Source: Rhododendron vialii
Lineage: Eukaryota; Streptophyta; Magnoliopsida; Ericales; Ericaceae
Assembly (NCBI RefSeq): GCF_030253575.1
Contig: NC_080568.1
Coordinates: 203,501 to 267,500 of the forward strand
Direction: 5' to 3'
DNA length: 64,000 nucleotides
Positions 10,213 to 61,777 of the stretch are shown one piece after another; position 1 is the stretch's first letter; every line of letters starts with the position of its first letter. Position numbers and translations under genes: made by a program. The notes below the pieces were generated by a model. That model searched no databases and was not told where the DNA came from. It saw only the letters and a program-made list of their open reading frames with translations.

Positions 10213-13200
10213 CTACTTTCCATATCCCCAAAAGTCCATCTCTCCGCGAAGTGACAATGGATTCATCGGCTGTATTGATGGTTCATTTGCATCCCCAAAC
10301 CTCACATGCTCATGACCTTTGGACAAAGAGTCTTCTTGGCCAAGATGAGGACTAGTAGCTACAATCCTGCTATGGTCAAGCATTCCCCATTCGTTTATGT
10401 TTTCGTGATGATCTCTTCCACCAACCATATTTTGTGATGGTTCACATGATGTTCCAACCTCTAAGCCAGGCTCGCACGCTTGGTACTGCAGGTTCTGATC
10501 GCTTCCACTTTCACAATCTCTAGGGTTGGAGGACATAAGTTGCTTGACCATCAATGGTGAGTCTGATGGAAGAGCCGAGTAATCGTAACCCATCAACTTG
10601 TGGGTTGGGATCAGGTTTTGTTCTTGAATGATATTGATGTGGGGATGATAATTAGGTAATGGAACATGAGAATAGTTAAGTGCCAGCTCACTGGACTTGT
10701 ATAGATCAAAGCTTTGTTGGTGACGCATTATATATTGATGGTTGTCCCTGTGGTGCATGTAGGTGGTACGAGATGGATTTCCATTTGAGCTATTAGTATT
10801 GAGCTGGTCCGTGGCCATGATATTACTAGCTCCACCACCTTCACCTCCAACTTTGAATAAGTTCTTCTTCTTGAATACCCTGCAAACCACCCATCCATCC
10901 TCCTGCATATAGACCGACCATTCAGCAAAACAAGACTTCTTGTTAAAAGCTATTTTGCAATTTCTTTTTTAATTTGTCTTACAAATGATTCCCATAGAGT
11001 ACCATATACATATATATATTACTGTGTGAACCTCATTTTTCAATTTCAGCCTTAGCTATATTTCTATAAAGATATGGAGCACATGGGAATGATGGTGATA
11101 TAGGGTAAATATTGATAATATCACATTCACATAGTTTAACATATCTCACTCTTTGGGGGATTTTACGTCCAATGTGCATTGATTTGACCTGGGAAAAATG
11201 TTAATTAAACACCGAATAAATGATCCCTTTTATATACAGTCCCATCTGATCAATACTCATATTCAATCAAACAAATTGGTCCTAAGACTTTTGAATATGT
11301 GTGCCTCAATTTTCTATATCAGCCTTGGTTATGTACTAAATTAAGGCTTTTTCTAAACGAGTAACACAAATATGAGACGACATGCAAATTGCTTGTGTTT
11401 TATTGATCAACTGTTCAAATACCAAGAGACGAGGAGATTTCTTCTTTTCTTACACTGGAGTTGCCTTGATCATCAGCATCGTCAAGCCTGTATTCATGCA
11501 TGATCCAGTCCGTCTTCTGACCGTGTGGAGCTCTGCCCCTATAGAAAACAAGAGTTTTCCTCATACCAATCTTCTTGAAGGTATTCCTTATGCATTTGTC
11601 TCTGCCTGTAGCCTTCCAAAACCCCGCATTTGTTGCCCTATTTGTTCTTGAACCAGTTGGGTACTTTCTGTCCTTGTGGCTAAAGAAGTACCACTCGTTT
11701 TGTGGCGTCGATCCAATCCTACATCTCTCTGTGCACATAAACATGTATTATATGTCCCCCAACAGGTTCATGGCATATATATATATACTAATTAATCATT
11801 CATTCATTCATTTAAGTTATTTGCATTTGTGACAAATATTAAAACCAACTCTCTAGATTAGGAATATACACTTCTTTTTTTTGATAGGTAGGAATGTACA
11901 CTTGTAAAAATAGAACTAAAGAAAAGACTTGTAATTAAAGAGCTCATGTCCATTCTTGTAAAACCTCTATAGATTAGGAATATATACACACTTTTAACGG
12001 TTCATGCATTAAAATGAATTAGTAACAGTAGCTTCTGTGAAAGCCAAAACCTCTCTACTCTAGGCTGGTTATTATAGTGATACGCATGTAAAACCTCTCT
12101 GTAGGCTGGTTATTCTTGACCTCTTGGGATCGTACGTATTTTGTAGAGAACCCGTGACCAGGTTGACTGACTCGAAGCTTTGGGAAAAGCGGAATTACTG
12201 TTATAGTGATATGCAGGCTCCGATCCTGACCAATGGAATTAATGTTGTTAGTTTGTTTAATCACTGGTGTCTAGCACTGGGATTTTCTGGTATAGATTTT
12301 TTACTTTTCTTGGTTAGATTGGGGGTTTCTGATTTTGGTTTTTTTGGGGGTTGACCACTAGGAGTTGGGTTAGCCATTTAGGGGTACTGCTCTATGGTGG
12401 TGGTTATGTTAGGGCTTGGTTGTTGGGGTGCTTGTGGAGGTGGCCGGGATTGTGTCCATGATGGTGGTGATGGCGGACCTGATTTCACGAAGAGAGGGGC
12501 ATTTGGTGGGGCCCTACAAGATGAACAATGTTCATATTATAATAATAAACGCATGGTGAGGCTTACAATTACAGTGGTCACGGTTTTTTGCCAATCCGGC
12601 GGAAAGAATTTAAACTCTTTAGGTAAAGAAAAATCATATATATTGAGGTATCACAAATGGCTAAGGTTTTTACTTCTAGAGCTATTTCTTTGTTAGAATC
12701 AAAAAAAATCAGCCGCTTAAAAGAAGAGAGGAGGTAATACTTATTTATCAGTACCTTTCCAGGTCTGGTGTGGTTGTAGAAGTACTATATATTTTTAGTT
12801 TGAAAGAAAATTATAGTACATATAGTACTTGGACACGGTGTTTTATTATGTCGTTCAACAATTGGCAAATTTTTTCGGTAAAAACATCATGGAATATCTA
12901 AAGCCAATCATGATAAGACAGATGTGATTTTAATTACTTGCAAAGCAAACAATAATCATAAACTATGAGTTTCCGGCGTTGCGTACGACTGCGGTCCTCT
13001 TCTCGCTTCAGATCTGGTTTTTGTTCACCTTGGCCTTGGTTGTATGATTTGGTGGATTGGAGTGTGCGTGCAATTTCGTTTGGGCTTCTCCAGGTGGTGA
13101 CGGAGGCGGTAGATGGTGGTGGCCTGGGTGGTGGTTGGAGGCTGTTTTTGGGCGGCTGTGATTCATGGATAATCTGCGGCGGTGAGTGGTTGTGGTTTGT

Positions 13201-23177: not shown

Positions 23178-25906
23178 ATGGAAACCACTTCTTCTACACA
23201 GTCGCTCACATTCTATGATTTCCTTGATCGGATGCGAAACCCAGCTTCCCTTGATCTTGTTCGCTCCATCAAAAGGTCTACTTCATCTTTCATCCCATCC
23301 CCCCACCCTTCATATCTTTATCTTTTTTTGTAGGGCAAGTGATTCTTATATTGAGTGTCTCATTGCAGCTTTATTGTATCTTTTTCGTTTTCCACGGCAA
23401 ATCCTGAAAATGATGGCAAAAGACTGCAAGATTTCCTCTTGACGATGGAAACATCGATTAGGGATCATCCACTGTGGGACGGTGCATCGGAGGAAGAAAT
23501 TGACTCTGCAATTGAGGTAATTGTTCTGTATGCAGCTTTTACTCTTCTCTTCCATTTAAGATTTTAATCATTTGCTTTACTCTTCTCTTCCAATTATTAA
23601 GGTTTTGATCATTTGTTTATTTGGGTGGTAGAGTTTAGGAGTTCTGGTTATTTTGTGCACATTGCTTCACTCTACCTCCTCACCACTTCTTGTTTAATCA
23701 TGAGGTTAATCCAATCTTCGTTCAACAATTAATAGAACAATCCAGCTTTTACTGTTAAGTTTCTTGCCAATTTGAACCGAAGGAAACTTTTCTTTTTATG
23801 TGGTCTTTCAATTTCTCTGAATACTTCAACTACTTGGTTATTTGTGGAGAAGTTAATGTGGAAGGCACAGAAAAGGGAAAGATATAAGCTTGATCTTGCT
23901 GATATAACTGTTCTTGATTCTTGAATGCATTTGTTAGTGTGACCAAAGTGAACAAATTCATAAGCACGGCCGAGCTTTTTGAATTAGGTAGCAGGACATT
24001 TATACACGTATGACGTATATAGTTCCTCATCACGCTGAACACCTTCTTCAAAAAGCTTGTTTGCTGCTTTTTCTTGAGCACTACAGTCTAGTATCTATTC
24101 GGATGCTTCTTTCTGGTGGTTGGTCCTAATCTGTCAATGTGTCGAGTCTTGGGGTTTGGTTATGGTGGTAATGTTTGTGTTGGTCAAAATGACCAGCACT
24201 AGCCCCTGTTGAGTAAGTTTTCTTGCACGACTATCCAGAAACCAAAGAAAGCAGTTAGATCTAACAACTCTGATCATATAATAGGATTTTGAAGTTGAAG
24301 GTATGCAAAGAGAAAGAGTGGAGAGAATTTTTCCCAGGTCCACTATACCACTTTCCAAACCCACTAAGTCCACTTCTAAATTCTATAACCCCCTAAGTCC
24401 ACTAACCTATTAGTAAAGATATAATAACCCTGGTTAGTCTAATATACCCCTACTTTCAAAAAATCTTTTATCCCGTTTTTTCCTCCATTCCCGTTTTTTT
24501 CTCCCTTTTTTCCTCCATTCCCCTTTTTTTCTCGGATTCCTCCATTATAAAACCCATCCCCCTCCCCCCTTTTCCATTAGAACAAAACCCAGACGAACAA
24601 ATTGTAGAACTCCTGTGCATTGTCACCCTTTTCCCATCTCTTCCCACTCCCTCTGACTAAAATTGTCGGCACCGTCGCAGTCGTCCACCATACAAGTCAA
24701 AATCAAGTAGAACATTTAGGCCTCCCGCCAGCAGAAGATGGGAACCGTTTTCTCCCACGTTCGTCGTCGGCCTTCTCCCACGTACGTCTCCGTTCACCCA
24801 CGTTCGTCTCCGTCGCCTTTGATTCGCCCTCGCTTCAGTCGGAAGCCGTCGCCGTCGCCGTTCTTTGCCTTCGTTTCTCCATCGCCTTCGTCAGATCCTA
24901 CATCGCAATCGAAGGAAAAGACGTTACGAGATCTCCTCTTTTTTTTCTTTTTCTTTTTTTGAGTTAGAAAGGACAGAATCTCATGTATAACGTTATAAGG
25001 TTATATGTTTATTTTTTGTCACACGTATTACGTTTTTTTGTGTGTATTTATTTATGTGGCAAAGTAATCGAAACACATATAAGGTTCTTTGTTTGTTTTT
25101 TCATTGTAAACATATATAAGATTATTTATATGTTCTTGCATTGTAATAAAAAAGATTTCAGAAGCTCATACATATACGGTTATCAGAAGCAAGTCAATGA
25201 GGCCGCTGCGCGGACCAATTCAATAAAGTATATAACGTTATATAATGTTATATATGTACAATGACGTTATATTGACATTATATAAGGTTAAACCTAAACA
25301 ACCAAAATCATTTTAGGTTTGCATCCTTAATATCGTTATATGTGGTCTTCTGTCATGAGTGAATGAGTATATAACGTTAAATGCGAGCTGATAAATGAGT
25401 ATATAACGTAAAATGTAAGTATTTCACGTTAAATGTGAACTGATGAACGAGTATATAACGTTATATACAGTGTATCAGAAAAGGAGAATCTTCTGTCGCT
25501 CTATTGAGGCCGCTGCGCGGACTAATTCAATAAAGTATATAACCTTATATAACGTTATATCAGTACAATGACGTTATATTGACATTATATAAGGTTAAAC
25601 CTAAACAACCAAAATCATTTTAGGTTTGCATCCTTAATATCGTGATATGTGGTCTTCTGTCATGAGTGAATGAGTATATAACGTTAAATGCGAGCTGATG
25701 AATGAGTATATAACGTAAAATGTAAGTATCGCATGTTAAATGAGAACTGATGAACGAGTATATAACGTTATATATGTACAATTACGTTATATACAGTGTA
25801 TCAGAAAATGAGAATCTTCTGTTGCTTTATTCCAACGTAACTGCTGGGATTTCAAACACGTAGAACGGATAATTGGCTAAAAATATGGGATTTGAATGGA
25901 AAGGGT

Positions 25907-25954
<48 letters not shown>

Positions 25955-28900
25955 TGGACTCTGTTTCCCTTCTGGATATGGGAACAACGTGAATATGGGA
26001 GATTTTATAGGAGTGGGATATGGGAGATTTTATAGGAGTGAGATATATCAGATTAACAGTTTTTAAAGGTAAGGGTATTTTGGTCCTGAACTAATTCCTT
26101 TTTTAATTGAATTGGACTTAAGGCCTCACCAAAACCTAATTAGTGGACTAGAGGGGTTATGAAATTTAGAAGTGGATTTAGTGGGTTACAAATATGCTAT
26201 AGTGGACTTCCCAACAATTTTTTAATAAATCTAGTTAGTTCAACACTTCAACTTGGGTCGTTCAGCATTCACATGACCTAAAGAAGTAGCTTCTCTCTGT
26301 TACTGTTATTGTGTTCTTTCCCAAGTCATTTTGTCATTTCCCCTTTTGAGACCCCGGGAAATCCTAAATTACATATCTACCATTAGCCCAATAGGGAAAT
26401 TGATCGTTCTTGTATGGTTTCAATTGTCAAGTTGTGGTTTTATGGGAAGTTTAGGGTAAAGCCTATTAGGTGAAATTTTGAATGTCAAGTGGGGATGATA
26501 TCCCTGGGAGAGTGGTAGTCTGGAAAACACTTGTTTTCCCATCAAATAAATGTCATGTTGTACGCTTGTATTGTGAATGTCTAATCTTCAGTTCCATGTG
26601 GCATATTCTTGACAGAACATTTTTTCTGGGTATTGCAGGGTTTGGAGAAGTATGTCATGACAAAGTTGTTTGCTCGGACATTTGCGTCTTCTCATGAGGA
26701 CGCAAACACTGACCAAGAAATTTCAGAGAAAATTTGCTTGTTGCAACACTTTTTGAGGCCTGAGCATTTGGATATTCCAGAAGTTTTCCATAATGAAGCT
26801 TCATGGCTGGTACTCCACTTCCCTTTTTTTATTGGAGTGTCAGTCAACTATACTAAACTTGATGCCATAAAATCAAAGTTCGTTAACTTAGAATTGCTTC
26901 AACCATAATGCCACTTGGTATTTATTCTACCCTTCTTTTGTTTGGTAGCTTTAGTTTGAAGTAAATCCTATTTTTAGTGTATGGAAATACTGTTTCCTAA
27001 GTTTTCTAACCTATGCAGCTCAAAATTTTATTTAGCTAATTTCCGGCAAAAAACAACTAATTTTAACCGAAACATATCTCACACATGTTCCTTTCGTGAG
27101 TATTTGAAATGCTTCCATGGTAAATGGAATATTCGAGTAGCTGGAAGTTGTGTAACCTAAAACAAGTCTTACATATGCTCTACTGAATCATATGAACCTA
27201 GAAATTACGCTGTATATTCATCATTACTTGATAAGTAGCTCGTGCTAAAAAAAATTTCTATCATTTTCCTGGCTTCTCTGGCATTTGAATCCACACCAGC
27301 AATCTCCAGCGCTTGACTGCAGAATCGCTTGATGTATATTTTTCCTTAATTTTTTAATATGTAGAACTCATGTTTGTTTTTTTAAATTATGAGTTCTACC
27401 ATATGCATATTGCTAAGAAATAATGTAAGTTTTTTGTATTCCTACTTCCTGATCCGTCCTTACCTCTCTCCCTCCAAACAGCTTGCAGAGAAAGAATTAC
27501 AGAAAATCAATGCTTTCAAAGCTCCTCGCGAGAAGCTTCTGTGTATTCTGAATTGTTGCAGAGTCATTAATAATTTGCTGCTCAATGCATCAATGTCAGA
27601 AAATCGTGTACCTGGTGCTGATGATTTTCTTCCCGTATTGATTTATGTTACGATCAAGGCAAGCTCTCATTGGTAATAAACCATACCTCCAGTAACCATG
27701 TCAGATTTAAATCTTGGTTTCTTAGTTTTAAATTCTGGTTGCTTCATGTATAGATTGAATAACAGAGTGATATAGATTGATTTGCTTGCAAAAAAAACAA
27801 CAAAGGAAAAGGAACTTTTGTTCTCTCTGCAATTGAGTCCAAAAGGGTTTTCGATTGTGATGTTTAATAATGACTCTGGTGTACGCATCTTTGACGGCAC
27901 AAAATGCATTTATGCAATGAAGTCAGGAATACGCTTACATTTGTGATTAGCTTCTCAATCCTGCTGTAATAATCAAATTATACTCTTTGACAAAGTCAAA
28001 ATCATTTTTCAAAGTGCACAGAGGTCAAGTGATTCAGGGTCATCTAAGTTTTGAGTTATGCTGGTGATAATGTTACTTATTCTCAGAGCCTTGTCAAAAA
28101 TAGTTGCAGATGCTTCCAGAAGTGCAGTTCTGTTTTTTCCACTTTTGTGGTTTTCAGGGATAGGTCTTTCGCTGACATTATTATTGACAGGCTAATCCTC
28201 CTCAATTGCATTCCAACCTCAAGTTCATCCAATTATTCCGGAGACAGGAAAAACTCATCTCTGAAGCAGCTTATTACTTTACAAACCTCGTCTCTGCCAA
28301 GACATTCATTGTTGACCTAGATGCTAAATCACTATCCATTGATGGTACTGAATTCGAGGAGAACATGAAAACAGCCAAATTGGCTATCACAGGGGCACGG
28401 ATAGGACCCCTACCTGCACTACATGAAACACCAGCCTTGGTAAATCCTTTTACAAGAATGCGTAATAAAGCGACACAAAATGAGCCGTCACCCACGTTGG
28501 ATGAGATAGTGGACTTGGCTAGTCAATCAGATCCTGGACCTTCTCAAGGAATGGAGGGTAGTGAAACCAACATTAGTGGTGAGTTTTAAACTGGCTAAAT
28601 AGCTCTTGTTTTCTCATTGATATTGATGTGCTGTGTTGGCTTTTCCATTGCATGATTAACAATTCATGTTTACATGCAATCAGATAACAAAGCCACCATC
28701 TACATGCATCAGATATGACTAATATTACATGGTTTTGAGTTTTGACCAAATAGACCCCTATTCTGTTCCACTTTAATCATTTGGCTAGAATATGCAGCCA
28801 TACCTCCCAATATGGCTATTTCGATTATGTGATATGATTTTTTAAATGTCCATTTCTATTATGCTTGGTTTTATTTTTCTTATTTTTGTGTTTTTCTAAC

Positions 28901-31188: not shown

Positions 31189-33439
31189 TCAGAGATCAAC
31201 ATTCCAAACAGCTCCATCTCCTTCTCCACAAGTATTGTGTATATTTTTCATCCTCTCCACAGATTTGCATATTCCACTGCATGTCCAATCAAATGATGCC
31301 ACACATACGTTCCCCGCCTGTGTCTTCAATTCACAATCTATAAACACAAAAACACCAAATCACACATGACAGAGTTGATAGATTTAGGTGGGTGTTTGTT
31401 TTGTTTGGTAGGGTACCTGGAGGAGTTCCACAGCACATAGAACGAGCGTCAACATGTTCAACTTCCATGCCAATGAACCATGACCCCAGAGAGACGTCCT
31501 CGTTGGCATACCTGTGCAATATTGGTCTGTATATGTATCCACTTGTAAATATCACCATTACTTTCACCAAAATACTTGAGATTTAATGAAGAGAATACAA
31601 TGTCTATTCTCTAGTGTATTTAGAGATTGAAAATGCTGGGAGAGAGACAGAGAGAGAGAGTTACTAACGAGTTGAGAGAGATGTAAGATGCGAGGTCCTT
31701 CGAGATGGCATAGAGTTGACCGGTGGCATGTCTGAAGTACTTATTCCCCTCTTCCCCAAACTTCCAAAACTCTGGCTCGTGATATCTTACCCCTCTGGCA
31801 TCCCCCCCCGAATGAAAATAGCATTGTTAGGAATATGTACGTCATGGACAAATGTTAGGCTTAAGATATAAACTTTCCCATCAACATGAATAACTAGGAA
31901 TTCACCAATTTCCCAAGTACAAATCACAGTACATGGCGAAGAACAACAAGAGTATATAACTTACTTCTGAGAGAGAACTGGCCCAGACTTCATGCAGCCA
32001 ATGTAAATCCTTGGTTTCGACCGATACCGTGCCAATGTGCTCACTAGCATGCCTTCACAGCAACAAACAATATTAAGGTAGTTAATACATGCAGTATTTT
32101 TTATAACAAAAGAAGAAACTTCAAGAAAATGGACCAGGACATACCCAAATTAAGGTGGACATCATCGTCGACCTTGACATAAAATTCAGCATCCCAGATT
32201 GAGACAACTGTGGAGAAGTAAATGCGAGTCTTGGTCGAGAGCTGGTGGTATCCCTCAACGTGTTTCAGGCGAAGGAAGTCCTTGTTCTCAGCAGCCTCCT
32301 CATCTACCGCTCGATCAAGGACTCCTCCCGGTGTCGCACTGTGTCCTATCACAAACCTCATTATTATCCCTTTCTCTTTCTCCAATCTCTTTAGCTTGTC
32401 TCCTGCATATATATGTAGTTGGTTTCAGTAGGTATAATGGAGAATACGCAGGTCAGCACGTGAAAGACATATGATTTCATCAGCTATGAACCGACTGTAA
32501 ACAATTTATATTCCAGTTTATGTTGGTATCTGGTGGCCATTAAATCAACCAATTACTTGATCTTGCTAGAGGAGGAGATAGAAATAGGATTAGAACGGAA
32601 CCTCTTGGCATCCATGTTTCACGAAGGGAGTCGCGCCGTTTCTTGCTGCTGAAAGCAGTATTAATTCCAATTACCACGAAAGCTTTCTGTAGGGTATGAT
32701 TAGATGACTTGGGCAATGAAAGAAGATTGCTGCTGCCTGATTTTTTTGTCCGAGCTACCGCCAGTTCCATCTCCAACGTCGATATTGTTTTATCAAGCGA
32801 TCTGTTTACAATCAAGAAAACACGAAAACGAAGCTGAATTTAAGATTGTAAACACATTTCAAACAGTGTACCAAAAAGAATTACAAGTTCATCTTCATAC
32901 TGGATAGCTTGATGCGTCTTGGTTACTTCGCCCATAATGTCTCCTGTCCCTTCAAACAATTTCTGATCCATAGATAATTTACGGTTAGGAAAAGGATGAA
33001 ACGTTTGTCAGAAAGGAAAGAGAACACATGTACATGAATTAGGCAGCTGCTGAATATGATGACTTAAAAAACCTGACGAATTGACACATCCATTTATTTT
33101 TCTCCTTCAAAATACTGTATACTATCGATGATCTACTGGTTCACTTACACGTTTATGATCACAATCACGAGCAACTGTGTTCAAGTTCTCCAAATCCTTA
33201 TTCTCTGAAGAGTGGATTGAAGAAGTGCGGGTGGTAAAAAGGGATCCAGCGAGAAAGCTTGCAATGCAAAGCATGAGAATGACTTTTCCAGCAACTGGCT
33301 TTACTACTCTCATTTTGTTAGGCTTGTTGTCGAGCAGCTGCCACCGCCACACACTCGATTTCAAATTCTGATACCCGGTTACTAATATCCCCTGCTTGCT
33401 TTCCTTTGTAAATTCCTTCATGACGTATGCCAACCACAA
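31189..33439 (-). CDS. Beta-1,3-galactosyltransferase, GT31 family (complete, 8 exons)
   Basis: Exons 33439-33149, 32962-32901, 32801-32602, 32402-32145, 32052-31965, 31794-31669, 31526-31417 and 31337-31189 join in phase to about 427 residues. It looks like a type II Golgi protein: a hydrophobic anchor at residues ~49-68, a stem with [20 protein letters not shown], then the GT31 catalytic domain with [37 protein letters not shown], the metal-binding DDD near 263-265 ([10 protein letters not shown]), [18 protein letters not shown] and [14 protein letters not shown]. It matches plant B3GALT1-8 (Arabidopsis At1g05170 type), which add galactose to glycoproteins. The start is uncertain: Met1, Met7 or Met43 are possible; Met43 would put the anchor near the N-terminus. 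It converges with VPS9A. A run of eight G's sits just before one splice acceptor (31801-31808 on the plus strand). Confidence 0.93.
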
Positions 33440-34458
33440 ATAGATGCAAAAATATATGTCAAGAAATTAAGTACTACTACTATTTAGTATAACTTTCCTA
33501 GCTAGTTTCAATGTATATAAGCGCAAAAAGTCGTACACTATTTTACGAGTTGAAGGTGTTTAGCAATAGGTATATATAATGGTGGGAAATGATTGATTTG
33601 GTTTAGCTTTCCTGACATAAGATCAACAAAAATTGAATGAGGATTAGGGGCAAAACTGATTTTCCTTTGACCAATGCTGTTTCAAAACATTTCATGTGAA
33701 AGGATATGGGATGTCCAGTTTGAAGCACTGGAATAAATAAACTTTCTTAATTAGCATCAGAGAAGGAAAGAGCAAATTTGAACTCAGTTCCAGAAAGGAA
33801 AAATAGCAACCAAGGGGGGATTAACCTTGGTCTAAACCGAAATTTTCTTATATGTGTTGACTTTTGAGGGAGGATTCTACTTTAATTTGCACACCACAAT
33901 CAAAGCGTTGCCTATCCAAACCTAGTTACCAGTATCAAACTAACATCATGTCAAGGAATTCAGCACTTGTTAATATTGAATCTCCGTAAGTAAAATGCAT
34001 TGCTTGATCATCCGAATATTAGAGTCAACTACACACATCACGGGAAGAACAATGTTAAACCACAAAATATGTGTAATCTGGTGTGAATGGAGCTGTGGGA
34101 AAACCATCATATGCGATGTTGTGGAGTTTGGCGTAAGTGATCGAGAAGGTTCATTGCATGGGAGGAACTATGCACACGCAGTTAATCGTTTGGTAACTAA
34201 TGGAAAACTTGAATGAAATATGTTGCACACAATTATAACTTCTTTACTAATGAGTTCCAGTATTCATACTCTGGAAATGTATCTGTCAAATGTATAGAAT
34301 AAACTGAGTGATTATGATCAGTACCTGATAAGAGATTGTGGGAATTCTGATTTAAATGCTTCGGTAGATTTGGATGATGATCATTTGACAAGAGAATCAA
34401 GGCGTTTTTGTCTTTTTAAGAGCAACCTCTTTTCAGAAGTAGATGGTTGGCTTCAGTT

Positions 34459-34493
<35 letters not shown>

Positions 34494-34940: not shown

Positions 34941-35400
34941 TCAAACTGATAGAATAATGTCCAGAACTTGTTCCTGAGTCCGAGCCTGCATTAGGAATAA
35001 AAACTAATCAAGAATTGAACTATCAAGTATGTATCAAATTTACCTTCCTCCCCGGTTGCCTGTTGTCCCAGGCTCTTTTTCGTTCAGTGTCATTGAAGTG
35101 TATGAGGACATTTCTTAGGAATCTAAGGAATTCGTATCCCTCATCGGTATGGTAATGGTCCCAGTTCTTACTGTACTTAACGTCTTCCTTTCTCTTAACG
35201 TAAAAAATATCCAATAAAACTGAGCCTGGAGCAATAGAATCTCGCCAATCCCAAAATCCTCCGCGTAATTTCCACACCACCCGAGCGAATGAGTTATTAA
35301 AGTATCCCTTAAAACCAGACCGTCCGAAGCCAGACATGAACTTAATGTCGTTCACGTAAACAAACTTTTCCAAAAGTCTGATTTTCTCTCCTTTCGTCAT
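34941..35400 (-). CDS. KEN (IRE1/RNase L-type ribonuclease) domain gene end, partial
   Basis: Two exons join in phase, 35400-35044 and 34985-34941, giving 133 residues from the first Met. Reading back, the frame is open through SPYF before MTKGEKIRLLEKF, much like the start of a KEN domain after a kinase domain (HPLFWSSEKRLSFL in plant IRE1). Then GGFWDWRDSI and the core DHYHTDEGYEFLRFLRNVL followed by IHFND. Tyr83, Arg96, Asn97 and His101 have exactly the spacing (13, 1, 4) of the IRE1 RNase catalytic residues Y892, R905, N906, H910 in human. No clear AG acceptor is visible before the exon, so the 5' limit is unknown. Upstream exons probably lie beyond the solo LTR, in the inverted repeat. 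Homology is distant but the residue spacing is strong support. Confidence 0.55.
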
Positions 35401-35529
35401 GAAGTATGGAGAATCAAGAACAAATAAAGGATTGGGTTAGTTAAATTGTATGATCTTTGTCAAAGGAATTTATTAATAGATTCCCATGTAGATGGGGTTA
35501 GTCAAATTGTAGTTCTTGGTGACAGTAAT

Positions 35530-37596
35530 TGTAGTGATCCGCCCTAAATATTAATTTATTTTATTTAATATGGCTACATGTAACTATATTTAGTAATTAA
35601 GGCATGGATTTTTTTTTATATAGACGTACATATACGTGTGTATATGTGTTTGGTTGATCGGGCATGAGTTGTGTGATAAGGACCGAGTGCGTGGGACTCA
35701 TATGTGATGGAGTTTTTTTTAATATAAGCTTTTAGAATTAACTATTATTAATTGTTGGCTTTATAGGCGTTAGTGTAATGACTCAAAATATTTTAGAAGA
35801 TGGAGCAATAACATAATTCTTGGAGGGACATAGTGCAATTTTGCACTTAAAATGGCTGAGGACAGCCGAGAACTCTTGAGAGTTCTCTGCTTTTCATTTT
35901 TTTTCCTTTCCCGTTCTCTCTCTCCCATTCTCTCAAACTCCATACAAACCCTCATTGTTCAATTTAAAAATTGGAGACCAAATTCGAGAATTTTACAAAA
36001 AGACAAGAAGAAAATGTGATCTACGGACAAAGTGCTACGCATCTATCTGAACAAAATCTCAATCGGTCAAATTTGGAATTTCATGGCAATTTGAGGATTT
36101 CTCTCTTTGAGGTAGGATTTATACTAAATGATTAAATATGGATGTGTATATGCCTTGGTGTGCACTTAATTTGGGTTTATGGTAGAGTAATCAAATTATG
36201 AGCCAAGTTCTAATTTATATGTTTGGAATTGTGTGCTATACACGATTTTTGTAAGGGATTTTGTTGTTATTCATGGTTAGGGTTGATATTTTACTGTTTT
36301 TGGCATATTTGGTCTTCACTAGTAGTGGGTTCACCTTCTAAGTGATCAAAATTAAGAATTTTAAGTGATACTAGAATAAGAGCTAGTTTATGCACTCCAT
36401 GTGTTCAAGGAATTGGAAGTAATTTATATGGACATAAGTCTATACCAAGTATACTTGTCTCTTTGCATGTAGTAAACTGGTGAAAGAAATTTTGTGATAT
36501 ATGGCTAGGGATACTCGTTGAATACATGTACGTAGCTAATGTTTCTATTATTGAGACTTCATTGAATTTTTGTTCTACATTCATTCATTTTGATGAATTT
36601 GGGTAAGTTATCCAAGGAAAATTGGTTGATTTTAGTTGATTTGGGCTTTAAGGCCAAGTATTTGAGATATTTTGGAATATAATAGTTTAGTGATTTTGAG
36701 TTGGATCACCGGGGAACTTGGGTCAATTGTGACGCCATCGATCGGTGAAAGTCCGTAAATCTACTTGGTCAATTGTGATGCCCAATTGATGCCATCGGTG
36801 AAAGTCCGTAAATCTACTGGGTCAATTGTGATGCCGTTGGTAAAAGTCCGTAAACCCGCGCGCGGTAGGTTGCTTTGTCCTTCGGGTTAGTAGCCCGTAA
36901 AGTGCATATGTGTTGGAGACGTCTAGCACGGCTGGTTGGTGATTGTATCAGTGAGCAACTCATATAATTTTATGTCTCGGTGTTGAGTAAATTTGATATT
37001 CGATTTGGTTGGCTATTCTATTATGAGCTTTGTTATTTTCCGTATCGACTTTTATGGGTAATTTCCCTTATTTGGGACTTGATTTGAGTTTGTGGTTTAA
37101 TAGCATTCTTTTGAGCATTTGGAGGGAAGGAAAAATTGGAAACGTTTAATATAATGCATAGATTATTTTTGCTGTGTTGGCTTGACTTTGAATTGAGACT
37201 TTATAACTTCATTGTAAATATTGAAGGAGAAGAAAGCATGAAAAACTTTTCAATAATTACATATAAAAAGAGTATATTTTGTGTATCAAACTTTGCATGT
37301 TCATATTTTTTCATTTAGCGTATTTCCTGCACGAGCTGTGGCTCATGTTGTTGTTAACTCAAATTTTTCAGGTTTCGAGATGGATCCGAAGGCTTAAGAA
37401 TTATGGATATGTTCTACTTCTTGTTTTTTTAGAACTTAATCGGATACTTGTACATATTTGTTTGTAAGGAAGCATGAGGCATGTAAACATTAATTTTATT
37501 TTAGAAATGTAAAATTGTAGATTGAGAGAACGGGGCCTGGATGTGTATAAAAAGTAGTGTATTTTGTTCATTTGTAAAAAAAGGCGGGTCATGACA
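35530..37596. mobile_element. Solo LTR fossil, ~2.07 kb, probably Ty3/gypsy
   Basis: Begins TGTAGTGATCCGCC and ends GGCGGGTCATGACA, so TG...CA with short imperfect inverted ends, flanked by a 5 bp duplication GTAAT (35525-35529 and 37597-37601). No coding domain is present inside; only the LTR remains, as expected after recombination between two LTRs. The intact target duplication suggests a moderate age. It lies between the KEN exon and the inverted repeat. Confidence 0.75.
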
Positions 37597-37775
37597 GTAA
37601 TGATGTATTATCAATTCTTAATCATCGTTCTATTCATCAAGCATCAAACCTTTATTGAAGTACTATAAAATCTTGACCAATTAATTTCTTGATTTTTCTT
37701 TTACCTTATTTTGGTTGAATTCAATTTCAGCCTCTTGCTTTAACTTAGTTCTTAGATGTTATCCATATGTGACCT

Positions 37776-39342
37776 TTATTGATTATTTTTCTATTGTTTC
37801 TTTGAATAGGCATGACAAAGAAAAGATATTGTACTTGAATAGGCTTCTCCACACGCATCTAAGATCATCGAACCTAGTCATGATAGCGAATATCCAGATT
37901 AAGGTATATTCTTTCATCATATAGGAAATGAAAAAACTTCGTTGGCCTCTGTTAGTCTGTAGTTGTATTTTTTCCAAGTGATGACACCAAAGATGATCGA
38001 CTGCTAGGTTTGGGTTTTTTCTGATATAGTCTAATGCATTGATTTTTATCCTTTCCATTATCTCCAGTATTGATTATACATTTCTTGTAACTTTTGATTG
38101 GTTGGAATTTTAAGAGAACCTGCTGATATCTGGCATTTGATTTTGTTGAAGATGCATGATAAACTAAGAACTCCTTCAAATGCACAAGTCCATTAGCTGC
38201 TATATATGTTACATGTATCCTCAATTTTTTGCAAAGTACCAGCCTGAACCAACATTAGACTGGGATTATGTAACACTTGAGGACCAGAGCCACGGATACC
38301 AAAACTTTTATTTTCATTTAGTTGTATAGGAGAAGCAAGAGCTGTTTATTACGTTTACTGCTATTTTTTACTACTATTTATGGTCAACCGTGCAAACTGA
38401 TTCCTTCCCCCTCTGCTATACCAAAGAAGCAGGAAGCAAACGCGGCAGTATAAAGCAAAGGAGGGCTTATTTCTCTAATAAGGGTGCACGTTTTTCTACT
38501 CCAGTTTCCTTCATAACTCTAAGGGAAGTTGAAGAGATTCCTGCATTCCCTGAAACACAGAGAAACATGGCCAAGATATATTACTGTAACTATGGTAACA
38601 ATCAAGTAACCCTAATGACCCAAGAGGTAAAAGAAGATTTTTTGATGGAAATAGGTTGAAAACCGAATGAATGGATACGCAAAGGATGTACGAATGGAGA
38701 AGATCCAAAAAGGTCTTAGTGGAATTACATTGAATCAGAGTTCATCAATGCATTCAGGTATATTACTTTGTTTGGTTTTGAGATTTTTTTTTTTTATCTG
38801 AAAACTTGTAAGTGAACAAAATCTTTACTTTTTTGTTTGCAGGATTTTGATTTCATTTCTAAGGTTCTTGTACATGGTTAACGGTTGTCATCTACTCAAA
38901 GGCAACATTTTCTTCACTGAAGATGGTGTGTTGGCCTTTGTTGTTACTCAACGTTCAAATCAAATGCAAAATTATACACCCTTATTCAAGGCCTTAATAA
39001 AGGATGTAATTGAAGGTCCATTTAAAGGACAAGGATAGAGTGAGAATTCCCTTTATATGCCAACAGCTCTACAAGATCTTCTAGATGTGCTTCTTGATTC
39101 CAAGTAAGATATTTCGGTTGAATTCTTAAACCTGCGATTAAGAATTTCAATGTGTAACAGAATTTCAATGTGTAACAGAATTTCAATGTGTTATCGTTAT
39201 GAAAGAGTAACAAAATTTCAACGTGTTTCTTATCCCATATTGTCCGCATATTCAATGTTCCTTCAATTCAATTTCAAACGTTTCTCACTTCGTACTAGGC
39301 TTTTTTCATCAATAAAGTGTGCCAACTTTCAGATTTCCAAAT
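37776..39342 (+). repeat. Left arm of a 3.2 kb inverted repeat (gene fragment)
   Basis: 1.57 kb nearly identical, in inverted orientation, to 39409-40980. It holds exon-like segments read on the plus strand: HDKEKILYLNRLLHTHLR (37812-37905, with AG before and GT after), an internal frame with REVEEIPAFPETQRNMAKIY (38518-38580), and FLRFLYMVNGCHLLKGNIFF (38853-38912), continuing to FKALIKDVIEGPFKG. This copy has stops not present in the right arm, so it is probably the non-functional copy. I do not recognise the first two segments; the third may be a divergent kinase C-lobe piece. Confidence 0.85.
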
Positions 39343-39408
39343 ATCCATCTCTAGTTCATTGATTCTATTTTATTTTTTCAAATGTAGATATTCCAGACTC
39401 AATCCTTT

Positions 39409-40980
39409 ATTTGGAAATCTGAAAGTTGGCAGCACACTTTACTGATGAAGAAAGCCTAGTACGAAGTGGGAAAAGTTTGAAATTTAATTTAAGGAACAAT
39501 GAATATGCGGACAATATGGGATAAGAAACACATTGAAATTCTGTTACTCTTTCAAAAGGATAACACAAATCGCAAGTTTAAGAATTCAACCGAAATATCT
39601 TACTTGGAACCAAGAAGCACATCCAGAAGATCTTGTAGAGCTGTTGGCACATAAAGGGAATTCTCACTCTCTCCCTGTCCTTTAAATGGACCTACAATTA
39701 CATCCTTTATTAAAGCCTTGAATAAGGGTATATAATCTTGCATTTGATTTGAACGTTGAGTAACAACAAAGGCCGGCACACCATCTTCAGTGAAGAAAAT
39801 GTTGCCTTTGAGTAGATGACAACTGTTAACCGTGTACAAGAACCTTAGAAATGAAATCAAAATCCTACAAACAAAAAAAGTAAAGACTTTGTTCACTTAC
39901 AAGTTTTCAGATAAAAAAAATATCTCAAAACCAAACAAAGCAATATACCTGAATGTGTTGATGAACTCTGATTCAATGTAATTCCACTAAGACCTTTTTG
40001 GATCTTCTGCATTCGCACATCCTTTGCGTATCCATTCCTTCGATTTTCTACCTATTCCCATCATAAAATCTTCTTTTACCTCTTGGATCATTAGGGTTAC
40101 TTGACTGTTACCATAGTTACAGTAATATATCTTGGCCATGTTTCTTTGCGTTTCAGGGAATGTAGGAATCTCTTCAACTTCCCTTAGAGTTATGAAGGAA
40201 ATTGGAATAGAAAAACGTGCACCCTTATTAGAGAAATAAGCCCTCCCCTGCTCTATACTACCGCGTTTGCTTCCTGCTTCCTTGGTATAGCAGAGGGGGA
40301 AGGAATACTACCGCGTTTGCTTCCCGCTTCCTTGGTATAGCGGAGGGGGAAGGAATCAGTCTGCACGGTTGACCATAAACAGCAGTAAATGTAATAAACA
40401 ACAGTAAACGTAATAAACAGTTCTTGCTCCTCCTAGACAACTGAATGAAAATAAAAGTTCTGGTATCCCTGGCTCTGGTCCTCAGATGTTACATAGGTCT
40501 AAGGTTGGTTCATGCTGGTACTTTGCCAAAAATTGAGGATACATGTAACATAGGAGCTAATGGACTTGCGCATTTGAAGGAGTTCTTAGTTTATCATGCA
40601 TCTTCAACAAAATCAAATGCCAGATATCAGCATTAGGTTCTCTTAAAATTCCAACCAATCAGAAGTTACAAGAAATGTATATTCAATATTGGAGATAACG
40701 GAAAGGATAAAAATCAATGCATCAGACTATACTAGAAAAAACCAAACCTAGCAGTCGATCATCTTTGGTGTCATCACTTGGAAAAAAATACAACTACAGA
40801 CTAACAGAGGCCAACGAAGTTTTTTCATTTCCTATATGATGAAAGAATATACCTTGATCTGGATATTTGCTGTCATGACTTGGTTCGATAATCTTAGATG
40901 CATGTGGAGAAGCCTATTCAAGTACAATCTCTTTTCTTTGTCATGCCTATTCAAAGAAACAATAGAAAAATAATCAATAA
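39409..40980 (-). repeat. Right arm of the inverted repeat; probable upstream exons of the KEN gene
   Basis: Inverted copy of 37776-39342 across a 66 bp loop. On the minus strand it reads HDKEKRLYLNRLLHMHLR (about 40950-40860) and, at ~39868-39600, FLRFLYTVNSCHLLKGNIFF, TEDGVPAFVV, PLFKALIKDVI and TALQDLLDVLLGSK, with a GTAAGA donor after it. The last part resembles the end of a kinase C-lobe that normally leads into a KEN domain. It is on the same strand as the KEN exon, so it is the better candidate for the original gene. It contains a 50 bp tandem duplication (40257-40306, 40307-40356) that the left arm lacks. Confidence 0.7.
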
Positions 40981-41139
40981 GTAGAATGTGTGCGGCTTGG
41001 CCAAGTCCGGTCCCAATCACCGCAGGAATGCCATCGTAATCGAGTGCATGGTGGATGTCTAGCTGATGGACAAGAGAGCTAATGGTGTGGTGGTTGTCAT
41101 TTATGTTGGGGGATACATGTCAAACATGTGAAGATAATT

Positions 41140-42149: not shown

Positions 42150-43050
42150 GTATGATTACGCCCAAAAGTTGGAAAAAGCAAAGGCATCCGAAAATATGCC
42201 TGACCAAAGTTATGGCCACGAAAGGAGCTTTACCCATTGCTCACCGATGAACAACAACAATGAGCAAAGATGAGGAGCAATTGTAGCAAGGTTTTCCTCG
42301 GGCTAGGGAAAATACACTGAAACACGTGCAGAGCAAGATACCACGTAGGGGTGCACCACAGGGGATAATAGCAGACCAAGTGGTAAGCGCGGGGGCACCA
42401 CAAAAGGAACATCCGAGTAGGTGTACGTGGCAACACGGTAGCACCACGAAAGGTGCATAAGGCCGAGCAAGGTAGTAGTACGGGAGTAACGTATAAAAAA
42501 ATAAGGCGTGAATTCCGAGCAAGAGGCAACCTCGAGGGAATTGACTCAAGCTGAGCCGACCAACAAGGTGGACGGCTAGATTGATTCGAAATGTTCTGAA
42601 TTAAACTCCTTGTGTGATAAGGAGGGATCCCGTGAATAAGGGAATAAAATATTCTGCCATGAAAGGCAGAGGTAGAGTTACTAGTTCCATACAGAGAGGT
42701 TTCCTAACGGGAGAGGGACCTCGGCTTATTGGGGGAAAGTGTCCCAGAAAGGCTAAGTTTCCTATACGGGATAGGAAACTTAGGGCGACGATGGTGCTTG
42801 GTGAGCAAGTCACAAGGAATCTATAAATACGAGGTAAATCTAATGGGAAAAGGTATGCTTTGAGCTGTAATTTTACTTACCGTCTTCCTAATGAAATTAG
42901 GGTTTAGTACGAATACTAACTTTGGCATCGAAGGGCCTTTGCCGACGAGAGGCAGAGGTGCACTCACCGTGTTTGTGTAGCTGGTTTTAGGGTTCCGACG
43001 AGGCTGTCAGGTGCGGTTCGATCTCAAAGAGTGTTGTTCAATACAAAGCG
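42150..43050 (+). mobile_element. LTR-like fossil block, plus orientation
   Basis: Carries a TATAAATAC promoter-like site near 42823 and an LTR-type layout. It is similar, in opposite orientation, to 44130-44960. The sequence after it (43050-43200) resembles the leader that follows a 5' LTR in plant gypsy elements. Exact ends are not clear; no coding domain. Old and fragmentary. Confidence 0.5.
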
Positions 43051-44129: not shown

Positions 44130-44960
44130 CTGGCAAACTTATGTCAAGGGAAAAATCTACTTTATGAGAGATTACACCCTTTGAGATCAAACCGCACGAG
44201 ACAGCTACGCCGGAACCCTAAAACCTGCAATACAGACACAGTGAGCGCACCTCTGCCTCTCATCGGCAAAGGCCCTCCGAGTATACGTACTAAACCCTAA
44301 TTTCGTAAGAGAACTGTCAGTAGAATTAGCTCAAAGCGTACCTTTTCTCATTAGGTTTACCTCGTATATATAGACTCTTCGTGACTTGCTCTCCAAGTAC
44401 TCTCGTTGCCCTAAGTTTCATATCCCATATAAGAAGCTTAGCCTTTCTAGGACTCTTTTTCCCAATAAGCCAAGATCCCATCCTCGTAGGGAAACTCTCT
44501 CTATATGGAATTTGTCCCATATAGTAACTCTACTTCTACCTTTCACGGCAGAATATACTATTCCCTTATTCACGGGATCCCTCCTTATCTCATAAGGAAT
44601 TCATCTAGAACATTCCAGACTCACACACCCACCTATCCCGTAGGTCGGCCTAGCTCGGGTCAATACCACGCGTTCATACCCTTTGCTCGGCAATCGTATT
44701 ATGCCCTGTTACACGCTATCCCACGCAATTCTTCTGCTCGGCCTTACGCATCCTCTCGTGATGCTGCTGTGTTGCCACGTCCACTATCTCGGATGCTTCC
44801 CACGTGGTGCTCCCGTGCTCACCACGTGGCCGGCATTTACTTCTTGCGACGCGCCTTCCCATGGGGCCTACTTAGCACGTGCTTTAAGTGTGATTTCCCT
44901 ATCCCGGGAGAAACCCTACTACAGCTTCTATTAGGTCAAATTCAGCAAAAACTTTAAGGC
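44130..44960 (-). mobile_element. LTR-like fossil block, minus orientation
   Basis: Reverse-strand relative of 42150-43050, diverged by clear point and length differences. Opposite orientation means the two are not the pair of LTRs of one simple element; two insertions or a later inversion are needed. The 1.1 kb between them has no coding sequence I recognise. Confidence 0.5.
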
Positions 44961-61213: not shown

Positions 61214-61455
61214 CATTGTTAGCTAAGATCTACCTAAAGTTCATTGGCACGTTCTTCAACTGCAATGCACGTCAAATCAGATCTCCAATGATCAGAGGAA
61301 ATATATGGATTCAAACAATAAAAGAATACATGTGCATTGTTAGCTAAGATCTACCTAAAGTTCATTGGCATGTTCTTCAACTGCAATGCACGTCAAATCA
61401 GATCTCCAATGATCAGAGGAAATATATGGATTCAAACAATAAAAGAATATATGTG
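61214..61455. repeat. 121 bp tandem duplication
   Basis: Units 61214-61334 and 61335-61455 begin CATTGTTAGCTAAGATCTAC and are almost identical (changes such as GGCACG/GGCATG and AATACA/AATATA). Recent. Confidence 0.93.
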
Positions 61456-61777
61456 CATTACAACAAAGAATGAGGAGAAATATATACGTGACCCAGACAA
61501 GAAACTAAATTTCAGAAATATACCAAGAAAAGAGAAAGGAAAAAAAATGTATACAACCCCAAAGCAAGTCTGTCAGCATCATAAAATAGGAAAATACAAC
61601 AAACACTAGTGTTCTCTAAATGTGGTCTTCCAACAAGGTGTTTACCTGGCAAATTGTTTATTCTTGCTAAACATTGAGTCCGTCCTTACATAGAATAGGT
61701 ATGCAGAAAGCTGAAATAACACCACCCCTGTGAATTCTTTACATTTGATCCTTTGCAGCTGTTTCCTGATATGAAAT

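Follow-up and report, generated by a model that had tools for sequence, protein, structure and literature searches.

Probable relic of a KEN-type ribonuclease gene next to an inverted duplication under neutral drift in Rhododendron vialii

What is the short open reading frame (ORF) on the minus strand beside a large DNA hairpin in Rhododendron vialii, and do the two belong to one gene? The question concerns a stretch of 64,000 nucleotides (contig NC_080568.1, positions 203,501 to 267,500), here called the window, whose own numbering is used throughout. An earlier note on this DNA had proposed that a single gene, coding for a pseudokinase followed by a KEN ribonuclease (RNase) domain, once spanned the locus and was rebuilt by an inverted duplication and the insertion of a long terminal repeat (LTR). 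The KEN-like exon, the repeat and the LTR were all found, but the kinase found no support, and what links the right arm of the repeat to the KEN exon is a common strand and proximity. The locus is probably what is left of a plant gene for a KEN-type RNase, lying beside an inverted duplication that drifts neutrally.

The minus-strand ORF 35436-35026 is open over 137 codons (translation ...VLDSPYFMTKGEKIRLLEKF...HYHTDEGYEFLRFLRNVLIHF...). Since the window holds 28 stop-to-stop ORFs of at least 110 codons, this length is by itself no evidence. The motif is more telling. Tyr, Arg, Asn and His have catalytic roles in KEN domains, and the ORF carries them at offsets 0, 13, 14 and 18, which is the IRE1 spacing and is what the earlier note had pointed out. 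Across the six frames of the window, Y-x12-RN-x3-H occurs only once, with 0.1 occurrences expected per window (40 Markov-1 random windows gave 4 matches, none of them within an ORF of at least 100 amino acids). The spacing was also said to equal that of both IRE1 and RNase L, which holds in part. Arg, Asn and His are present in all five rows of a MAFFT alignment, but Tyr is shared only with human and yeast IRE1; the RNase L rows have Phe (human) or Leu (pig) at this position, with their Tyr one place later. The passages of PMC3710099 on this domain name R, N and H of KEN and make it a member of the HEPN superfamily with its Rx4-6H motif, which is also matched by the R-N-x3-H of our ORF.

In a search against Pfam-A (24,736 models, matches listed to an E-value of 1), the ORF matched a single family, PF06479 Ribonuc_2-5A, with E = 0.021 and 15.4 bits over residues 93-120. 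The family named in the earlier note is thus the one matched, but at a score below its gathering cut-off of 23.3. For the comparisons that follow, the KEN references were human IRE1, yeast Ire1 and human and pig RNase L, with an unverified sequence of Arabidopsis IRE1a as a fifth. Using the four, the ORF has a local hhalign score of 24.8, reached by none of 200 shuffles (mean 12.5, maximum 23.7). With the fifth added the score is 26.4, and none of 150 window peptides comes up to it (maximum 17.5). The global score of 21.1 is further from the shuffles, which have a mean of 3.1, a standard deviation of 1.8 and a maximum of 9.8 (0/150 reach it). A small KEN hidden Markov model (HMM) ranks the ORF first among the 1211 window ORFs of at least 30 amino acids, with E = 0.0075 summed over three pieces and a runner-up at E = 0.48. 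Finally, blastp without composition correction aligned it to pig RNase L with 24% identity over 125 positions; the E-value of 3e-5 comes from a database of five sequences, and a large database would not bear it out.

In terms of register, hhalign pairs FVLDSPYF with the HVLKHPFF joint, then the W-R stretch, then YHTDEGYEFLRFLRNVLIHF with the RN..H core, so that VLxxPxF, W-R and RN..H are in order in both the local and the global alignment. The likeness of the SPYF start to the kinase-to-KEN joint is borne out, with VLDSPYF in register with the joint of the references; FW of the xPxFW joint reads FM here. Positions L7, P10, F12, G60, L104, R108, N109, H113 and P128 are invariant over the five MAFFT rows, and the identity of the ORF to the four references is 15-28%. 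The Pfam match, the first rank among window ORFs and the alignment scores above shuffles support the KEN assignment, and on these sequence comparisons the ORF very probably descends from a KEN domain. Translated scans of a viral and a genome contig collection (viral_contigs, genome_contigs) gave no relatives, which is uninformative because plants are represented in neither.

As for the gene around it, the minus strand upstream of the KEN joint is free of AG from 35454 to 35392, and the AG at 35391 falls inside the region of homology. A canonical acceptor is therefore missing at the kinase-to-KEN joint. At the other end, a donor at 35043 and an acceptor before 34985 give a 14-residue tail in which no C-terminal helix of KEN (YF..FP.L) is seen. 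The other frame of the same stretch offers a tail, LGLRNKFWTLFYQFDRVSLSFHD, that by eye resembles the KEN C-terminus, and the scores give it no support. The coordinates are collected in Table 1.

Table 1. Features of the KEN-like locus and the adjoining repeat, in window positions
Feature	Start	End	Strand	Description
Possible last exon with GT-AG intron	34941	34985	-	ARTQEQVLDIILSV stop; no KEN helix seen
Same stretch, other frame	34913	34985	-	LGLRNKFWTLFYQFDRVSLSFHD stop; via GC donor at 35059 or frameshift
KEN-like exon/ORF	35044	35436	-	SPYF joint, W-x-W-R stretch, Y-x12-RN-x3-H active-site motif
In-frame TAA immediately 5' of KEN ORF	35437	35439	-	stop codon
Solo LTR	35530	37596	+	2067 bp, TGTAGTGATCCGCC...GGCGGGTCATGACA, 5-bp target duplication GTAAT on both sides
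Left arm of inverted repeat	37776	39322	+	two stop codons relative to right-arm frames
Loop between arms	39323	39431	.	about 109 nt
Right arm of inverted repeat	39432	40980	-	carries putative exons A and B
Putative exon B	39604	39864	-	RILISFLRFLYTVNSCHLLKGNIFF...LLDVLLGS, donor GTAAGA at 39603; kinase likeness unsupported
Putative exon A	39949	40256	-	SIEQGRAYFSNKG...NAEDPKRS stop WNYIESEFINTF, donor GTATAT

A pseudogene is the most likely reading of the locus, because the exon is preceded by a stop, has no canonical acceptor and shows no C-terminal helix in the canonical frame. Exon 35436-35044 would then be what survives of a plant gene encoding a KEN-type endoribonuclease, with the HEPN-fold RNase domain known from IRE1 and RNase L; in an intact relative, this domain would be expected to dimerise and to cut RNA through the conserved Arg, Asn and His. 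That a short KEN gene still works here is unlikely, given the lack of a usable canonical acceptor, the helix not seen in the canonical frame and the neutral divergence of the arms of the repeat.

Both arms of the claimed inverted duplication were found, and they differ at 83 of 1485 aligned bases (5.6%). Between the arms, the 109 codons of exon A show 4 differences that are synonymous, 15 that are non-synonymous and 1 that creates a stop, a count that extends about 6 codons beyond the presumed donor, where one of the 15 lies. The 87 codons of exon B show 3, 8 and 1, respectively. Taking both exons together, the proportion of synonymous differences (pS) is 0.057 and that of non-synonymous differences (pN) is 0.054. 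Both of these stops sit in the left copy, and there are no indels between the arms in either exon. The arms have drifted neutrally, without visible constraint. A further stop, a TAG within exon A, is shared by the two arms and so probably predates the duplication, unless exon A starts after it. The inner 1050 nt of the repeat fold to one long duplex at -751 kcal/mol, a value without shuffle comparison at that length. We take the 1.5-kb duplication to be a separate, adjoining rearrangement, drifting with no constraint that can be seen. If transcribed, the hairpin would form a long duplex that Dicer-like enzymes could process to small interfering RNAs (siRNAs) of 21-24 nt.

Some smaller observations concern the same repeat. 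A 50-bp unit (40255-40354) stands twice in tandem in the right arm and once in the left, and so changed after the duplication. The left arm has an 18-bp tandem repeat of 2.8 copies (39141-39191), whose extra copies are not in the right arm. A foldback transposon was considered as the identity of the repeat and rejected, no target duplication being seen at 37776/40980 on inspection by eye. A few kb away there is a second, more diverged inverted repeat (42376-43034 / 44174-44829), with arms of about 660 bp that are 77% identical, possibly the ends of a DNA transposon.

The LTR insertion was found as well, between the KEN exon and the inverted repeat. This segment looks like a solo LTR, with TG...CA ends and a target site duplication both present at 35530-37596 and no second copy within the window. 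From its ends, we presume it to be of the Ty3 type. A retrotransposon would have inserted between the exon and the repeat and later recombined to the 2-kb solo LTR. The inverted duplication and the LTR are both real but ordinary.

Does the right arm encode a kinase? The peptide CHLLKGNIFF...TALQDLLDVLL is there, but its description as a possible, very diverged kinase C-lobe found no support: it scores about like shuffled sequence, locally near or under the shuffle mean, and has no Pfam kinase match. For the profile tests, exons A and B were joined, with X at the one stop, and the kinase profile was made from five IRE1/RNase L sequences. The local hhalign score of the joined exons was 11.5, a level that 117 of the 150 shuffles and 110 of the 150 peptides taken from the window reached or exceeded, and 66/150 shuffles reached their global score. 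Exon B, taken with the end of exon A, scored 12.6 locally (shuffle mean 12.3), and its global score was reached by 16 of 150 shuffles. Pfam kinase models gave no match to the joined peptides at E up to 10. More broadly, no kinase appeared among 19 window ORFs searched against Pfam, the joined peptides against Pfam and PDB, or two ORFs against NCBIfam. In the Pfam and profile tests, then, no protein kinase or pseudokinase domain was found directly upstream of the KEN exon. By eye, HLLKGNIFF recalls the HRDLKPxNIL loop of kinases, and REVEEI...NMAKIYYC the C-helix and beta-4 of IRE1; we did not count this as evidence. A kinase that has diverged beyond the reach of the five-sequence profile could conceivably lie in the right arm. 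A DsrE match of exon B (E = 0.021 in the left-arm copy, 0.18 in the right-arm copy) covers 34-36 residues, is sub-threshold and has no other support, and was rejected; in the left-arm copy it has the same E-value as the KEN match. Other weak Pfam matches of window ORFs (Gemini_C4, MASE3, Hexapep_2) were set aside likewise.

Several results weigh against reading the locus as a KEN relic. The Pfam score is under the cut-off and is not raised by either tail (15.3 and 15.0 bits against 15.4, the GT-AG tail giving 15.0); the GC-donor tail, the one tried with hhalign, leaves that score unraised too. With five references, one of 150 shuffles (27.5) exceeds the local hhalign score. Of the three pieces summed by the KEN HMM, one breaks the order of the domain, and the best of them taken singly reaches E = 0.055. 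The W-R stretch is out of register in the five-row MAFFT alignment. A phmmer search against PDB, at E up to 10, returned no IRE1 or RNase L chain, and its sole match was a ribosomal protein (E = 1.9). The single-sequence structure model of the ORF was uninformative, with a predicted local distance difference test (pLDDT) score of 36.5. As regards the loss of function, a non-canonical acceptor or an internal start (the Met of FMTKGEK) could possibly still leave a product. Neutrality between the arms implies that at least one copy, though not necessarily both, is under relaxed constraint, and has no bearing on the KEN exon, which lies outside the arms.

These points bear on the alternatives to different degrees. 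A likeness to KEN that arose by chance in a 137-codon intergenic ORF would fit the sub-threshold Pfam score, the PDB search without an IRE1 or RNase L match, the shuffle that tops the local score and the 28 long ORFs of the window. We consider it improbable, since the ORF ranks first of 1211, its motif is unique in the window, its global alignment is domain-wide with none of 150 shuffles near, and the VLDSPYF joint is in register although it lies outside the motif that first drew attention. In the reading that follows the original proposal, a single gene joined a shrunken pseudokinase (the right arm) to a KEN domain, the arrangement of RNase L; the duplication and the LTR broke into it, and splicing may still bridge them. 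The right arm and the KEN exon are on the same strand and in order, and with the left arm, the loop and the LTR taken out exon B and the KEN exon would be 439 nt apart, a usual size for an intron, which keeps one gene feasible. The by-eye kinase-like segments and the freedom of exons A and B from indels between the arms agree with it. The shuffle-level hhalign scores to kinases of A+B and of exon B, the lack of a Pfam kinase match, the TAG within exon A in both arms and the joint without acceptor do not, and we hold a single gene to be unlikely.

The hairpin itself could also be what functions, as a working hairpin-RNA gene that would silence related genes through siRNAs from its inverted duplication. 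The duplex is long and near-perfect, and a passage of PMC350667 reports an Arabidopsis inverted duplication with arms matching the 24-nt siRNA02. However, the KEN exon lies outside the arms and the arms are drifting, as their equal pN and pS indicate, which makes such a gene quite improbable on what the DNA offers. In a broader version, dicots would have a lineage of IRE1-independent KEN RNases with the pseudokinase shrunk as in RNase L, and an inverted duplication of pseudokinase exons would have turned one member into a hairpin-RNA locus with siRNAs against its own family; we see this as highly improbable. A KEN relic next to a separate duplication is the reading we prefer.

Compared with known KEN domains of IRE1 and RNase L (PF06479), the ORF has the same P-x-F joint, W-R stretch and R-N-x3-H core (the Rx4H of HEPN) in the same order. 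It differs in its score below the cut-off, its 15-28% identity, a C-terminal helix that was not found in the canonical frame and the absence of a recognisable kinase ahead. Arabidopsis IRE1C (AT3G11870) is described in PMC6788458 and PMC6883098 as a sensor-less IRE1 present in Arabidopsis and some other Brassicaceae, with an identity of 46% to IRE1A and 41% to IRE1B (PMC6883098). Like the KEN reading here, it is a plant IRE1-type protein beyond the classical IRE1A/B; unlike it, IRE1C has a predicted transmembrane segment, and our exon is far more divergent. PMC3710099 reports lineage-specific solo-KEN expansions in plants, mainly in monocots, rice among them. There too KEN stands apart from the IRE1 kinase, but these are rice and other monocots, and the likeness is one of description, not of sequence. 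Plant KEN proteins outside IRE1 had been called little described, which is in part incorrect in view of these expansions. Among open-licence PMC papers we found none on a dicot solo-KEN or pseudokinase-KEN family. Lastly, loci of the siRNA02 type, as presented in PMC350667, share with ours an inverted duplication capable of fold-back RNA; there a small RNA matches, whereas our locus is known from its DNA sequence.

If the KEN reading holds, the locus points to KEN-type RNases in a plant genome outside its IRE1 genes, whose relatives in genomes with better annotation might be assayed for RNA cleavage and for a part in stress or virus defence. The inverted duplication of gene-like sequence would be a candidate for a locus that has recently begun to supply small RNAs. 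As this is a single relic locus, its direct impact is small.

Analysis of the surroundings gave no RNA family in a search of the whole window against Rfam. It did identify a NAC transcription factor exon (11418-11747, minus strand; NAM, E = 4.3e-27) and an exon of a VPS9-domain gene (28188-28586, plus strand; E = 5.9e-10), which gives the window the look of plant nuclear DNA. The minus-strand exon 33125-33466, downstream of the KEN exon, matches DUF4094 (E = 1.8e-9); we take it to be part of a galactosyltransferase gene. At 34461-34491 the plus strand has 31 G in succession, which is unusual for such an AT-rich window. There are also tandem duplications at 25198-25774 (307 bp, 95%) and 61214-61459 (121 bp, 98%).

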